A DNA stretch of 40,554 nucleotides from positions 1 to 40,554 of the forward strand of contig QHWJ01000339.1 in NCBI GenBank assembly GCA_003222535.1, read 5' to 3'. Below the pieces are notes generated by a model, which saw only the letters and a program-made list of their open reading frames with translations, ran no database searches and had not been told where the DNA came from. The position numbers and the translations under genes were made by a program. Below, in pieces: positions 19,118 to 33,400 of the stretch (position 1 is its first letter; each line of letters begins with the position of its first letter). Source of the DNA: Acidobacteriota bacterium. Lineage in GTDB: Bacteria > Acidobacteriota > Vicinamibacteria > Vicinamibacterales > CAVVIG01.

Positions 19118-19171
19118 GTGGCGTCCGCCTTTAGGCGGACCCGGCCAGGTCCGGCTGAAGCCGGACGCCAC
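19118..19171. repeat. Composite REP-like palindrome (54 bp)
   Basis: Outer arms GTGGCGTCCG (19118-19127) and CGGACGCCAC (19162-19171) enclose two inner palindromes: GTCCGCCT-TT-AGGCGGAC (19123-19140) and GTCCGGCT-GA-AGCCGGAC (19149-19166). It lies in the 100-base gap between the two tandem gene copies. The GTCCGGCT core recurs inside addA near 30,680, 31,650 and 32,560. Confidence 0.85.
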
Positions 19172-26805: not shown

Positions 26806-27055
26806 TAGGCGTGGCGACTCGTTCGCCATTCAAGCGAACATCGGGCGTATGACCAGACCTGTCAGCCCCACCAGGTATCCTCGCAAGAGTGTGCCGAACA
26901 GAACACGTTCTCCACGCTGCCAATCGTCACAATCGTTGATGCGGGGTTCGCGCGTTGCGGAATCGGTCTTCAACGTGCAGGGTTTTGAAACCGGCCACAG
27001 GCAACCCTGATGCTGTGGGCTCTGTGGGCTCACATGGTCGGTGCCGGGAGGTGGC

Positions 27056-30000
27056 GTGGATCCATTCGTCGCCCAGCTCGCTCGTCTCTGCACCGAACAC
27101 CGTACCCGCGCGAAATGGGTTTTCGTGCCGACGCACTCGCTCGGACGCACGCTCGGCGAGCGGATCGCGCGCGAAGGCACCAACTGGCTCAACCTCCGCT
27201 TCGTGACGCCGCTCGACATCGCGCTCCGCATGGGCGCACCGTTCCTCGTCGAGCGCGGCATCGATCCGTCCGAAGCGGGCCTGGGTCCGGCGCTCATGAT
27301 GCGGCTGCTGCTCGATCTGCCCGAGCCGGACGGCTACTTTCGTGCTCTTGCGGACCAGCCGACGATGGCGCAGGCGCTGTGGTCCACGGTGCGCGATCTG
27401 CGGATGGCAGGCGTGAAGTCGGACGACTTGAAAGCGGCTTCGTTCGAGTCGCCCGGGAAGCACGCCGAGCTGCGCGCCCTGCTCTCCGCGTACGAGCGGC
27501 ATCTGGAACGTGAGCACCGCGGCGACATGGCGTTGGTGTACGAAGAGGCGCTGACGCATCCCACGTGGTGCCCGATCCAGCCGCAGGACTGCTGGACCGA
27601 GCTGCCGCACGCGGCCTGGACCCTGCTGCAGCGCCTCTTGATCGACCGGATGCCCGGCGAACGCATCAGTCCGCGCGCGCTGGCTCTTCCCGGCCGCACC
27701 GTCCCGCGGCGGCTTGCGGCATCGACCATCGAACAGGTCGCACCGGAACGCGCAACGAATCCCCTTGCGTTCCTGATGACACCGGCGACCCTGAAAGGGT
27801 CGCCCTACACTCCGAGTATCGAGCTGTTCCACGCGGGCGGCCGGGAAGCAGAAATCGGGGAAGTGTTTCGCCGCATCCTGATCGCGGGCGTGCCGCTCGA
27901 CGACGTGGAGATCGCGTGCGCCTCAGACGCTCACGTTGCGCTGGTGTGGGAGAAGGCGCTTCGGCACGACTGGGCTGTCACGCTGGCGCCCGGCATCGCT
28001 GCGGCGCAGACTCGTCCTGGCCGCGCGCTCATCGGCCTGTGCGACTGGATTGAAACCGACTTCGCCGCGAGCCACTTCCGTCGTCTGCTCCAATCCGGAG
28101 ATCTTGGTGTTGAAGCCGAGGACGAAGGATTCAGTGCGGGGCAGGCCGCGCGCCTTCTTGCCCGCGCTGAAGCCGGCTGGGGACGGGCGACGTATGGTCT
28201 CGCGCTCGGACGGCTGCGCCGCGACTACGAGACACGCGCGGCGGATCCGGACGAGTCAGACGAAGACCGCGCGGATGCACGGGCAAAGGCCGACCTCACG
28301 GCGCGCGTCCTCGCCTGGATCACCGGGCTCGTGCGATCGATTCCCGAACCCGCGACCGATCTCCATCAGCCATCGGCCATCAGCCATGACGGTCGGGTCC
28401 CTTTGCAGACCGTTGTCGAAGCCGCTATCGCGTTTGTCGGACATACCACGGCACGGAAGAGCGCCCTCGACCATCGGGCGGCATCGGCGCTCGTCGACTA
28501 CGTCGCGGAGTTGCGCGCACTCGGCTCGTTCTCGTGCCCGCTGCCCGGGGCGCTGCGCTTCATCCGCGAACGTGTGCAGTCGCTGCACGTCGCGCCCGAA
28601 CGTCCACGTCCCGGCCACCTCTACGCCTGCACGCTGGCGGACGCTGGATACTCCGGACGTCCGCACGTCTTCGTCGCCGGCCTCGAGGAAGGACGAGTGT
28701 TTCCGTCGGCGGCCGAGGACGCCGTCCTGCTCGATTCGGAGCGCGCGGCGATCTCGCCTCTCTTGCGGTCTTCGACAGACAGGATTGACGAAGCCGTGTA
28801 CGCCGCGCTGGGGCGCCTCGCCGTGTCCGGCAAGACGAGCGTTACATTCAGTTACTCGTCTCAGGATACGCGCGAGTTCCGCGAGACGTATGCGTCCTGG
28901 CTGATGCTGCAGGTCTTTCGAGCGCAGCAGGCCGACGCCGGCCTCTCATATGAAGAAATGAAGGCGGCGCTCGGGGAGCCGAAGTCGGTCGTGTCGGCGG
29001 AACGGAATGCTGCGTCCTCTTCGGGTGGATGGTGGTTGCGCAGCGTCCTCGGCTCGGGCAGCGAGGGGGAAGAGGCGGTCGGCGCCGCATTCGGCGGTGT
29101 CGCGCTCGGCCGCAAGGCCGCACACGCGCGCGCGTCGGAAAAGTTCACCGAGTTCGACGGTTATGTGCCCGACGCGGGCGCAGTGCTCGATCCCTGCGCG
29201 GACGGCACCACCCTTTCGGTGACGGAGCTGGAAAAGGCGGCGGACTGTCCATTCCGTTTCTTCCTCAAGCGTGGCCTCGGCATTCGTCCCGTCGACGAGC
29301 GCGAGCGAGACAAGGATGTGTGGCTCGATCCGCTCACGCGCGGCACTGAGCTGCACGACCTGTATGCGTTGTTTCTGCGCCGATGCCGCGAAGCCGGCCG
29401 CCGGCCCGACGAAAAACAGGATGGCGCGTGGCTGAAGGGTGCCGTGCAAGCGCGGCTGACGGAGCTCCAGCGGGAGATGCCCGCGGCGACGATGGAGATT
29501 CTCGAGCGCGAGTCGAAGGACTTCCTCGCGGACGTCGAGCTGTTTCTCGAGGCGGAATGCGCGAGCTCAGCGTCCACGCCGATCGCGTTCGAAGTCTCGT
29601 TCGGTCGGCCGCTGGAAAGCGAAGAGATAGAGCCGCTGGCGCGCCCCGAAACGGTGGAAATCGATCTCGGCAAGGGACTGACGTTCCGAATCGCCGGCCG
29701 CATGGATCGCATAGACAAGGTCGGCGCCGCCTCGTTCGAGGTGGTCGACTACAAGACGGGCGGATTCTGGCGCGACGACTGGAATGGCACGTTCAACGGC
29801 GGCCGTCGTCTTCAGCATGCGCTCTACGGCCTGGCCGCGGTCGAGCTGCTTCGGAGCAAGTACAAGAAGCCAAGGGTGACTGCGGGCGTGTATTACTTTT
29901 CCAGCCATAAGGGGCGGCAGGAGCGGGTCAGAATCGATGCGCCGGGGCAGGCGGCGATTGCCCGGGTCCTCGGAGACCTCCGCGAATTGATCGTGCAAGG

Positions 30001-30145
30001 CGGCTTCGTCCACACGCCGGCAAAGGACAACTGCAAGTTCTGCGATTACGCCGCCGCCTGCGGCGACGACGTGCACGAGCAGGCCGACGCCAAACTGCAG
30101 GATTCCAGGTTGGCGGCGAATCGGAGGCTCGCCGCGCATGTCTAA
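27056..30145 (+). CDS. addB: AddB-type PD-(D/E)XK nuclease with 4Fe-4S motif
   Basis: 1,029 residues. I start at GTG 27056 with GGGAGG four bases upstream; GTG 27041 would place that SD inside the gene. The N-terminal part is an inactivated helicase-like fold, as usual in AddB ([20 protein letters not shown]). The C-terminal nuclease carries D898 and K900 in [10 protein letters not shown]731 ([16 protein letters not shown]) together with C993, C996 and C1002 ([10 protein letters not shown]) makes the iron-sulfur staple characteristic of AddB nucleases. With AddA it processes double-strand breaks for RecA loading. It precedes addA on the same strand across a 259-base gap filled with a G-rich repeat. 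A short CAGCCAT-type repeat near 28,365-28,390 codes for an in-frame loop. Confidence 0.82.
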
Positions 30146-30153
30146 GGCGAGGC

Positions 30154-30369
30154 CTCGTGGGTCTGGTGTGGCTGATAGGTCTGGTAGGTCAGGTGGGTCG
30201 CGTGGGTTGGGTGGGGCGGGTAGACCAGGTGGGTCTGGTGGGGCAGATGGGTCTGGTAGGGCAGGTGGGACTGGTTGGGCAGGTGCGTCTAGGGGACTTG
30301 GTGGGTCTTCTGGGTCGGGTGGGTCGGGTAGGGCAGGTGGGCCTGGTGGGTCTGGTGGGTCCGGTAGGT
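30154..30369 (+). repeat. G-rich degenerate tandem repeat between addB and addA
   Basis: About 216 bases built almost entirely from nine-base units close to GGTGGGTCT, with variants such as GGTAGGGCA and GGTGGGGCA. The plus strand has more than twenty runs of three or more G separated by short spacers. It lies between the stop of addB (30145) and the ribosome site of addA (30393). All plus frames are open through it, which creates false Gly/Ser-rich and Val/Gly-rich ORFs. It has strong potential to form G-quadruplex DNA or RNA. Confidence 0.85.
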
Positions 30370-30404
30370 CGAATAAGGAAGACTCCGAATCCAGGAGCCT
30401 CACC

Positions 30405-33400
30405 GTGGCATCCGCGCCAGATTCGCGTGCTGTCGATCGCGAGTCCCGCCGCCTCATTCGCGAAGAGCTGCTGACGAACATCCTCGTCGAAGCGGGCGCG
30501 GGGTCCGGCAAGACGCAGATGCTTGCCGAGCGCATGGCGGCCGGCGTCGCCGCGGGCGTCTACCAGGTCGAGCAGATGGCGGCGGTCACGTTCACCCGCA
30601 AGGCCGCCTCCGAGCTGCGCGGCCGTTTCCACCTCGCGCTCGAAGAGGAACTGCGGCGCGCCCGCGATCCCCGTGGTGTCCGGCTTCAGCTGGACCGTGA
30701 TCCGGACATCGTTGCCCGTCGCGTCCACCACGCGCTCTCGAATCTCGAGCGCTGCTTCGCAGGCACGATTCACTCCTTCTGCGCGCGGCTCCTTCGCGAG
30801 CGACCCGTTGAATCCGGCGTTTCGCCCGGCTTCACGGAACTGGACGAGGTGCAGGACCTCGATCTGCGCAAGCGCGCCTGGCGCGATTTCATCTCAAATG
30901 CTCGATCCGCCGGCGACCCGGACATGCTGGCGCTTCTCGAAGCGGACGTGCGCCCGAAAGATCTGGACTCGGCGTTCGCCACGATCTGTCTGAACGACGA
31001 CGTCGAGTTCCCGCCGGGCGACGCGGCTCGTCCCGATCCGAAGCCGGCGTGGAAGGCGCTCGATGAGTTCTGGAAGGAACTGCAGAAGCATCTTCCGTCG
31101 AAGATTGATCCGGAGACGACGTGCCCGATTCAGAAGGCTGCGCTCCAGTTCCGCGGCCAGTCGCGTGTTGCGCGGTACCGGCTCGACCGGCCGGCGGTCG
31201 TCGCGTCCCTCCTCGAGACGTGGGATTGCGAATCGAAGATCACGCAGTACCAGTGGGCCACGTCGGCCGCCGACAAAAAGCGTCTCAGGGATCTGATCAT
31301 TCCGTTGCACGAGCGCTTGAACGCAGAAACGGTCGCTCCCTATTTGTCGCAGTGGCGTCAGTACGTGTACCGCCTGTCGGTAACGCTGCTCACGCGAGCG
31401 CGCCTCTCCGCGGCGCAAGAGCGGCGCCGGCTCAATTCATTGAACTATGGCGATCTGCTCAACCTGACCGCCCGAGTCCTTCGCGGAAATGCCCGGGTCC
31501 GCCGCGCGCTGCAGCGGAAATACCGGCATCTGTTCGTGGACGAGTTCCAGGACACCGACCCGGTCCAGGCGGAGATCGTCTTCCTGCTGGCTGCCGACGA
31601 TTCAGTCGCGCCCCCAACCGTGTCCTCGGTCGGTTCTCGAGTAGTGTCCGGCTTTAGCCGGACCGTGGGGGCGGGCCGGACCGCGGCATCCGCATTCGCA
31701 GAGCCCGTAGGGCCCCGCTTTAGCGGGGCCGATACCGAACCGGTCGACTGGCGCACCGTCCCACTCCGTCCCGGCGCGTTGTTCGTCGTCGGCGATCCGA
31801 AGCAATCGATTTATCGCTTCCGCCGCGCCGACATCGACATCTACAACATCGTCCGTGAGCGCTTCAGCGACCCGGCGACCGGGCATGTCCTGCCTCTCAC
31901 GATGAACTTCCGGTCCGTGCCGGAGCTTTGCGGCTGGGCGAACGACGTCTTCAAGACGCGTTTCCCGGCCGACCCGACAGCCCATTCGCCGCGATTTGCC
32001 GCGCTCGACGCCGTTGGTCCCAGCCGCGACTCGAGCGGTGCAGCGCTTCAGCCCTGCCCGGGCAACGGGACAGGCATATCAGCTGGCGGCGTCTTCACGC
32101 TGACTCACGCGTGCGACCGCAGCGAGGTCAGACAGCAGGACGCCGAAAGGATTGCGAGATACATCAGATCGGAGGTCGATGCGAAGCGACGCACCTTCAG
32201 CGATTTCCTCATCCTGACCAGAAAAAAGCGCGACCGCATCATCTCCTACGCGCGCGCGCTCGAAGCCCTGAACATCCCCATCGAGGTGAGTGGCGCCGGC
32301 GCCTTTGGCAAGTCAGCTGAGGTCGAAGCGCTCACCGTCCTTCTCCGCGCGCTGGCCGATCCGCAGGATGCCCTGTCGCTCGTCGCCGCGCTGCGCGGTC
32401 CGCTGTTCGGCATCAGCGACCCGGAGCTGTTCGCGTTCAAGCAGTCAGGCGGCTGGTTCAATCTCTTTTCCGGCGTTGACGATGCGAACAATTCCCGCAG
32501 CCGGAGCGCGAGCCTTTCACATGGCGTCCGGCTTCACCCGGCTGACGATCGTGGCGTCCGGCTTCAGCCGGACCCGAATCCCGTCACCAACGCGCTCACG
32601 GCTCTCGGTCACTACCGGCGCTGGACGCGTCTGCTCCCCGCGGCCGCTGCGCTCGACCGCGTCCTCGAGCACACCGGCTACCTTGCTCTGGCCGCGACGA
32701 CACCCGGGGGCGTTGAGGCGGGGGACCTGGTGCATGCCGTCGACCGGGTTCGCCAGGTTGTCGAGGAGGGGGGCAGCCTTGCCGACGCCGCCGATGCGCT
32801 CGAGGCCGACCGCGAGGCGACGACCGAAGTGGAGTCGCTCCCACTCGAGCCGGGGCGCACCGACGTCGTCCGCGTCATGAATCTGCACAAGGCCAAGGGG
32901 CTGGAAGCAGATGTCGTGTTTCTCGCCGATCCCTGTGGAGGCTTCGAGCCGCGTGTGGATGTTCACATCGAGCGCACGGATCTGGAAGCGCGGGGCTGGT
33001 TCAAGGTCGAGAAGAAGGCCGACGGGAAATCCTGGGGAGGACGGATCCTGGGCGAGCACGCGGACTGGCCGGCGCACGAAGCCGCGGAGCGGCCCTACCT
33101 GCAGGCGGAACAGGATCGACTGCTTTATGTCGCGGCGACACGCGCGAAGGAACTGCTGATCATCAGTCGATGGGCGGGCAATCAGCGGGGCGCGGCCTGG
33201 GGCGCTCTCAATGATTTCCTGGCCACCGCGTCCGAGCTGGCGGTCCCACGAACGGCCGCGCCGCTGGTCGTGCGTCCCCTCGACTCCTCGAGCGAGGCCC
33301 AGGCGGAGGCCCGGGCCGCACTTCTCGCGGCCCACACCCGTGCGTGTCAGCCATCCTGGGCGATCACCTCCGTGACCGCCGAGGCGAGCCACATCGCGCG

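Follow-up and report, generated by a model that had tools for sequence, protein, structure and literature searches.

Palindromes read in frame within an AddA-type helicase gene of an Acidobacteriota bacterium are probably GTAG/GTGG-type REP elements

The window, a stretch of 40,554 nucleotides that makes up contig C48 of a draft genome (8.06 Mb in 450 contigs) of an Acidobacteriota bacterium, contains a gene for an AddA-type helicase-nuclease. Its product matches the Pfam families UvrD-helicase (9.8e-48), UvrD_C and PDDEXK_1, and its best NCBIfam model is addA_alphas, with a score far under the cut-off of that model. The gene start used here was set by a codon-usage gene finder, and the longest open reading frame opens at 30138. 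Directly before it lies a gene with a nuclease domain, which is taken as addB from this arrangement. The names given below to the helicase and nuclease motifs are those that we take to apply to this protein. The junction between the two genes (30157-30370) consists of a degenerate tandem repeat with units of 18, 36 and 72 bases, similar to GTGGGTCTGGT, which would be translated into a glycine- and serine-rich stretch if the start at 30138 applies. The features of the window are as follows.

19118-19171, no strand assigned, inverted pair in intergenic DNA, similar to a REPIN/BIME: GTGGC-GTCCGCCTTTAGGCGGAC with a GTCCGGC partner in inverse orientation, both feet facing outward
27041-30145, gene with a PD-(D/E)XK nuclease domain (Pfam), 1034 codons
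30405-33917, plus strand, AddA-type helicase-nuclease gene (addA)
30673-30696, plus strand, REP copy 1 (site 1): GTGG foot, spacer T, core with 1 mismatch; reads GVRLQLD
31602-31772, plus strand, stretch of 57 residues that separates UvrD profile position 239 from 240, in the interval from motif II to motif III
31641-31664, plus strand, REP copy 2 (site 2): GTAG foot, spacer T, exact core; reads VVSGFSRT
31707-31730, plus strand, second-family REP (site 2): GTAG and GGCCCCGCTTTAGCGGGGCC with no spacer; DNA hairpin of -11.3 kcal/mol
32040-32057, plus strand, possible further hairpin (tentative): CTTCAG centre; sits in another extra AddA segment
32521-32543, plus strand, degenerate REP copy (site 3): ATGG foot, 3 mismatches; reads GVRLHPA
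32551-32574, plus strand, REP copy 3 (site 3): GTGG foot, spacer C, exact core; reads GVRLQPD

An earlier, sequence-only reading of this DNA had pointed to inverted repeats at three sites within addA, and all three were found, although the repeat at 30678 is imperfect, its right arm being AGCTGGAC (1 mismatch). A search of the window for GTCCGGCTTYAGCCGGAC, allowing up to 3 mismatches, gave 10 matches, compared to 0.13 expected from shuffles. These matches occupy six distinct places, four of which were scored on both strands, and four of the six places lie within addA. The mismatches number 2 at 19123, 0 at 19149 (minus strand), 1 at 30678, 0 at 31646, 3 at 32526 and 0 at 32556. REP copy 2 has the form GTAG-T-GTCCGGCTTTAGCCGGAC-C, and site 2 contains REPs of two families, while site 3 combines one exact and one degenerate copy. 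The palindrome core that had also been placed between genes at 19118-19171 is indeed intergenic by the gene calls and forms an inverted pair. Two palindromes come in addition to those of the earlier reading, namely the second-family hairpin at 31707-31730 and a weak, uncertain hairpin at 32040-32057. The latter belongs to no clear family, since 1.287 Mb of the same genome hold no more than 4 places that match it with up to 2 mismatches.

As DNA, the intergenic pair folds at -24.4 kcal/mol (z -7.7), and none of 200 shuffles folds as well. For the free-strand folds of 31636-31668, which has a stem of 7 bp and a loop of 4, and of 31705-31733, one shuffle in 200 was as good in each case. Site 1 and the double site at 32521-32576 are unexceptional as free-strand hairpins, with 44 and 14 of 200 shuffles, respectively, folding as well.

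The extent of the inserted protein segments was judged against eight homologues. Pfam UvrD positions 8-239 end at nucleotide 31601 and positions 240-270 start at 31773, and 84 residues separate motif II from motif III in the AddA of the window. The same interval measures 44-47 residues in its three closest orthologues, which are 46-54% identical by segment, and 40 in the five homologues that are more distant. Thus 37-44 of the 57 intervening residues exceed the homologues; the main insert after DEFQDTD, previously put at about 45 residues, is absent from all eight, and its excess is somewhat smaller than that figure. In the solved AddA chain 3u44_A, which presumably comes from B. subtilis, 2 residues stand where the AddA of the window has 56. 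At site 1 the AddA of the window has 11-13 residues more than each of the eight aligned homologues, whereas site 3 sits in a linker of variable length, so that the limits of an insert there cannot be set. The alignment that had been proposed for the three sites therefore shows extra residues at sites 1 and 2 and leaves site 3 undelimited.

Several foreign stretches within one gene could also mean that the helicase gene is decaying, the REPs lying in a pseudogene that happens to remain open, and another AddA-like gene of the same genome (on contig C327) could make the copy in the window redundant. We consider this very unlikely. The open reading frame runs for 1170 codons with no stop or frameshift, every site is open in frame and the helicase and nuclease motifs are kept, as the earlier reading had stated, and codon scores are coding-like on either side of the two exact sites. 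The long PD-(D/E)XK nuclease gene directly upstream, moreover, gives the expected addB-addA arrangement.

The palindromes belong to a repeat family of the whole genome. Its canonical form consists of a foot GT(A/G)G, one spacer base and GTCCGGC-TTYA-GCCGGAC; the REP strand reads GTRG-N-GTCCGGCTTCAGCCGGAC, the footed sequence is GTAGTGTCCGGCTTCAGCCGGACC, and the foot stands on one side of the core. The genome-wide count of the core GTCCGGCTTNAGCCGGAC, which had been suggested as a check, returned 62 forward and 58 reverse exact copies, 120 in total and thus a high copy number, while the reversed control returned 0. The core is therefore more frequent than base composition would give, and chance was ruled out by this control together with the shuffles. 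The same count contradicts the view that the segments are native AddA sequence of the lineage and palindromic by accident. Site 3 does sit in a naturally variable linker, as that view would have it, but the exact addA copies also carry GTRG feet like the other copies of the genome, and we give this explanation next to no credence.

To describe the family, the pattern GTCCG[GC]CTT[CT]AG[GC]CGGAC was applied to a sample of the own genome that totals 1.287 Mb in 82 pieces, mostly chosen around listed cores (100 of the 120 exact places); about 19 of the 120 exact cores fall outside this sample. It holds 115 cores, 84 of which are preceded by GTRG and one spacer base (48 GTAG, 36 GTGG). A second sample, 60 pieces (0.942 Mb) of the related genome G013 selected independently of REP content, has the foot at 119 of 128 cores (112 GTAG, 7 GTGG). 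The rule in one account of REPs asks for a hairpin whose stem of 7-20 is fully paired and whose loop measures 2-5, with GTAG or GTGG on its 5′ side at a distance of 0-2 nt (PMC6006769); the 84 footed cores with their single spacer base and the fold at 31636-31668, with its stem of 7 and loop of 4, agree with this description. The second REP family, GTAG followed by GGCACCGCTTTAGCGGTGCC, is found at L150, L159, L172, L180, L195, L202, L208 and other loci, and related GTAG-footed copies lie elsewhere in the sampled own genome, with 0 in the reversed control. Judged by their sequence, the addA palindromes are copies of canonical GTAG/GTGG-tagged REP elements.

REP elements of this type are associated with tyrosine transposases (RAYTs). 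Studied RAYTs, including those of E. coli, S. maltophilia and Marinomonas, are described as binding and cleaving the single-stranded repeat, where they recognize a hairpin with a GTAG foot and cut beside it (PMC8266576). The genome has one full RAYT gene, on contig C216, whose product scores 101.7 bits against NCBIfam NF047646 (REP-associated tyrosine transposase; cut-off 80). Repeats of the same family flank it on both sides: an imperfect REP (2 mismatches) abuts the stop codon, an exact copy with a GTGGC foot follows 44 bases further, and a mirrored GTGGC-footed REP with 2 mismatches lies upstream of the start. Fragments of further RAYT genes are present at G000:C169:55531-55680 and G000:C448:41275-41403 (G000 being the own genome), the former about 2 kb from the second Lhr helicase gene, also on C169.

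We examined 27 of 80 fetched RAYT loci, searching flanks within 350 nt. Footed GTCCGGC or GTCCGCC hairpins flank eight of the 27, including six of the seven most similar to the C216 RAYT; nine of the other 19 have footed hairpins of other stems, and in ten none was found. At L070, L071, L077, L081, L086, L088 and L089, the RAYT belongs to another lineage and the GTRG-footed hairpins beside it have a different stem.

Across genomes, the core was found in 35 of 100 (own included), with a maximum of 379 copies. Foot and core together occur in nine genomes (own included) out of 297 sampled across the phylum. All nine belong to the same order, which contributes 30 genomes to the sample, and none of the other 267 has the combination; it is also present at the RAYT locus L073, titled Candidatus Sulfopaludibacter. 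Of 45 genomes (own included), 31 gave a RAYT match, 20 of them above the cut-off. The pairing of REP and RAYT is imperfect, since no RAYT match was obtained in G010, G011 and G022, which have 37, 27 and 45 cores, respectively (many of the genomes are drafts), while G007 and several other genomes have a RAYT above the cut-off and no core, other RAYTs having other stems.

The position of the copies relative to genes was scored with a simple codon-usage gene finder, which gave a coding fraction of 0.857 in the own genome, and a copy was called internal when at least 50 codons from both gene ends. The 115 cores of the own genome divide into 67 intergenic, 30 internal, 10 near a start, 4 near a stop and 4 across a gene edge, while random points were 13% intergenic and 59% internal (2965/4999). 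The 128 cores of G013 divide into 94, 13, 2, 4 and 15, respectively, compared to random points that were 10% intergenic and 60% internal (3005/5000). The family is thus mainly extragenic in both genomes, and the shortage of internal copies means that genes are avoided or that insertions within them are lost. It had been proposed that the family tolerates or favors insertion in protein loops; the censuses agree with tolerance, and with gene interiors depleted in both genomes a preference for them is unsupported.

In translation, the 30 internal copies of the own genome give SGFSRT (10), VRLKPD-like (10), VRLQPD (8), PAEAG (1) and PALAG (1), although their open frame is partly built into the gene finder and is not an independent test. 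They lie in 22 genes, 20 of which have a Pfam match (for L157 only a PD40 repeat below the cut-off); the short reading frames L143 and L209, with no Pfam match, may not be genes. Some copies lie between domains, as in Lhr (residue 574, between WH_Lhr and DEAD_assoc) and in an S9 peptidase (residue 453, before the catalytic domain), and others inside a domain, as in IspD and a class III aminotransferase. GTGG feet are enriched inside genes of G013 (5/13 compared to 2/106 GTRG copies, P 0.0001), with corresponding figures of 11/17 and 25/67 in the own genome (P 0.056), an excess that is partly expected because GTAG as a foot creates a stop codon in one of the forward frames. All four copies read in that frame have GTGG, an outcome that the gene finder itself partly imposes. 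Among the G013 genes with internal copies are three for protein kinases (L258, L268, L248).

Taken together, we consider it probable (about 0.88) that the addA palindromes are GTAG/GTGG-type REPs spread by a RAYT, and that in-frame, stop-free copies in loops and linkers are tolerated. The observations on which this reading stands are the identity of the repeats and their foot, the RAYT flanked by the same repeats, the open frame, the absence from homologues and the depletion within genes. By analogy with studied relatives, the RAYT of this genome would process single-stranded REP hairpins and so spread the GTCCGGC family, and the C216 enzyme may have made the addA copies. Those that survive in addA would be the ones with a length divisible by three, a frame without a stop and a position in a loop or linker. 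The helicase would then carry the translated hairpins as extra residues, probably within loops of the folded protein, and the inserts may be near neutral.

What remains puzzling is the recurrence of REPs in helicase genes. It is possible that REPs preferentially settle or persist in genes of DNA-repair helicases, where an altered helicase would benefit the element or the cell, for example in the processing of single-stranded intermediates. In the own genome, two of four UvrD-family genes carry internal exact copies (the AddA of the window and an AddA-like helicase on C290), and two of about 19 DEAD-family reading frames, Lhr (C178) and YoaA/DinG (C308), carry internal copies. Set against copies expected by coding length of 0.07 (UvrD) and 0.29, the Poisson P is 0.002 for at least two UvrD genes and 0.0002 for at least four genes of the UvrD and DEAD classes together, but the class was picked after the hits and the 2013 paper had been seen, so that the excess is post hoc, and the expected rate comes from an extrapolated total. 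The Lhr of G013 likewise has an internal REP, and Di Nocera and colleagues saw the same bias towards repair genes in 2013 (PMC3733652). On the other side, 16 of the 20 own genes with internal copies and a Pfam match are not helicases, and among 11 such genes of G013 there are one helicase (Lhr), three protein kinases and three glycosyltransferases. Long multi-domain proteins would also have more linkers to offer. We regard such a preference as unlikely.

For the C290-type helicase, 27 loci were compared, and the reading frame is readable in 25 of them (own included). Cores with up to 2 mismatches occur in six of these 25, in G000, G006, G010, G012, G013 and G017. The 29 other AddA-type loci (L034-L062, some of them cut) contain no such core, and extending the helicase excess to AddA proteins at large is therefore unsupported. 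Five of the six have their cores in one loop that follows DRFP. This loop holds at least one exact core in G000, G006, G012 and G013, which represent four genera, and a single copy with 2 mismatches in G010. In the helicase of G006 (L286), residues 651-690 comprise four tandem direct REPs, 33 bases apart and in frame, partly decayed to VRLMPDAT, and in G012 and G013 the loop contains opposed pairs of one exact core and one GTCCGCC variant. In the helicase tree, whose deep nodes are weakly supported, the own genome, G012 and G013 are not sisters, G006 and G010 are sisters, and G005, the nearest relative of the own genome, has no core in its C290-type helicase. Exact cores turn up on distant branches of the tree and are missing from the sister G005, a pattern that points to repeated recent insertion, and common descent of the inserts appears less likely. 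A bolder proposal is that in different genera REP/RAYT families have colonized, repeatedly and independently, one and the same set of exposed helicase loops (in AddA-like proteins, Lhr and YoaA/DinG), with copies there specially permitted or advantageous to element or host. Though we see only a slim chance that this is right, DNA-repair helicases would, if it were, be a recurrent landing place for translated selfish hairpins. The loop of the AddA-like helicase, with no REP in some relatives and exact copies in others, offers a natural experiment on the repair-gene bias.

These results extend in-frame, presumably translated REPs to an order of Acidobacteriota, with comparative evidence. They caution annotators that VRLKPDT, VSGFSRT and similar peptides would, in these proteins, be scars of mobile DNA and not domains.

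The sequence-only reading had likened the elements to the palindromic elements of Rickettsia, in a different phylum. A genome-wide repeat family in another phylum was confirmed, and the likeness holds for palindromic repeats that appear to lie in frame inside proteins (open frame, absence from homologues). It fails on the terminal tag and on the transposase, since RPE-4 and RPE-6 are described with a CGTC tag and no dedicated transposase, and RPE-1 as longer (PMC3733652), whereas the elements here have a GTRG foot and a RAYT. The string CGTC arises here only where the spacer base is C. REPs of the GTAG/GTGG type with their RAYT are the closer match. The REPINs of Pseudomonas are reported as inverted REP doublets tied to a RAYT (PMC3116915), a form that the pair at 19118-19171 fits, but most copies here are not in close pairs, with 23 neighbor pairs under 200 bp among the 115 cores. 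Such pairs are inverted in 16 of 23 cases in the own sample and 30 of 39 in G013, as raw counts.

The closest likeness is to the GTAG-tagged REPs and their TnpA_REP transposases as treated by Di Nocera and colleagues, in the one-sided GTAG/GTGG foot, the short stem and loop, the occurrence as singles and inverted pairs, the RAYT flanked by the same repeat, and the mostly intergenic location with some in-frame copies in genes (PMC3733652). Their account gives in-frame intragenic REPs of the GTAG type in Proteobacteria and the verrucomicrobium Opitutus terrae, and mentions tyrosine transposases and TIR repeats of Koribacter versatilis (PMC3733652). The intragenic targets that it names include recB, uvrA and a UvrD/REP helicase, with genes of replication and repair prominent, and its authors doubted that the hits in repair genes could be accidental (PMC3733652). 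The addA case thus adds to a phenomenon reported in 2013, and it would be an independent case for the view taken there that REPs are too frequent in repair genes to be accidental (PMC3733652). The GTCCGGC stem and this order are unnamed in the accessible text of that article (PMC3733652), and among the matches listed in a literature search that left most subscription journals outside, no paper was recognized as describing this REP family. Beyond that account, direct alignment here shows one loop of a helicase hit in several genera.
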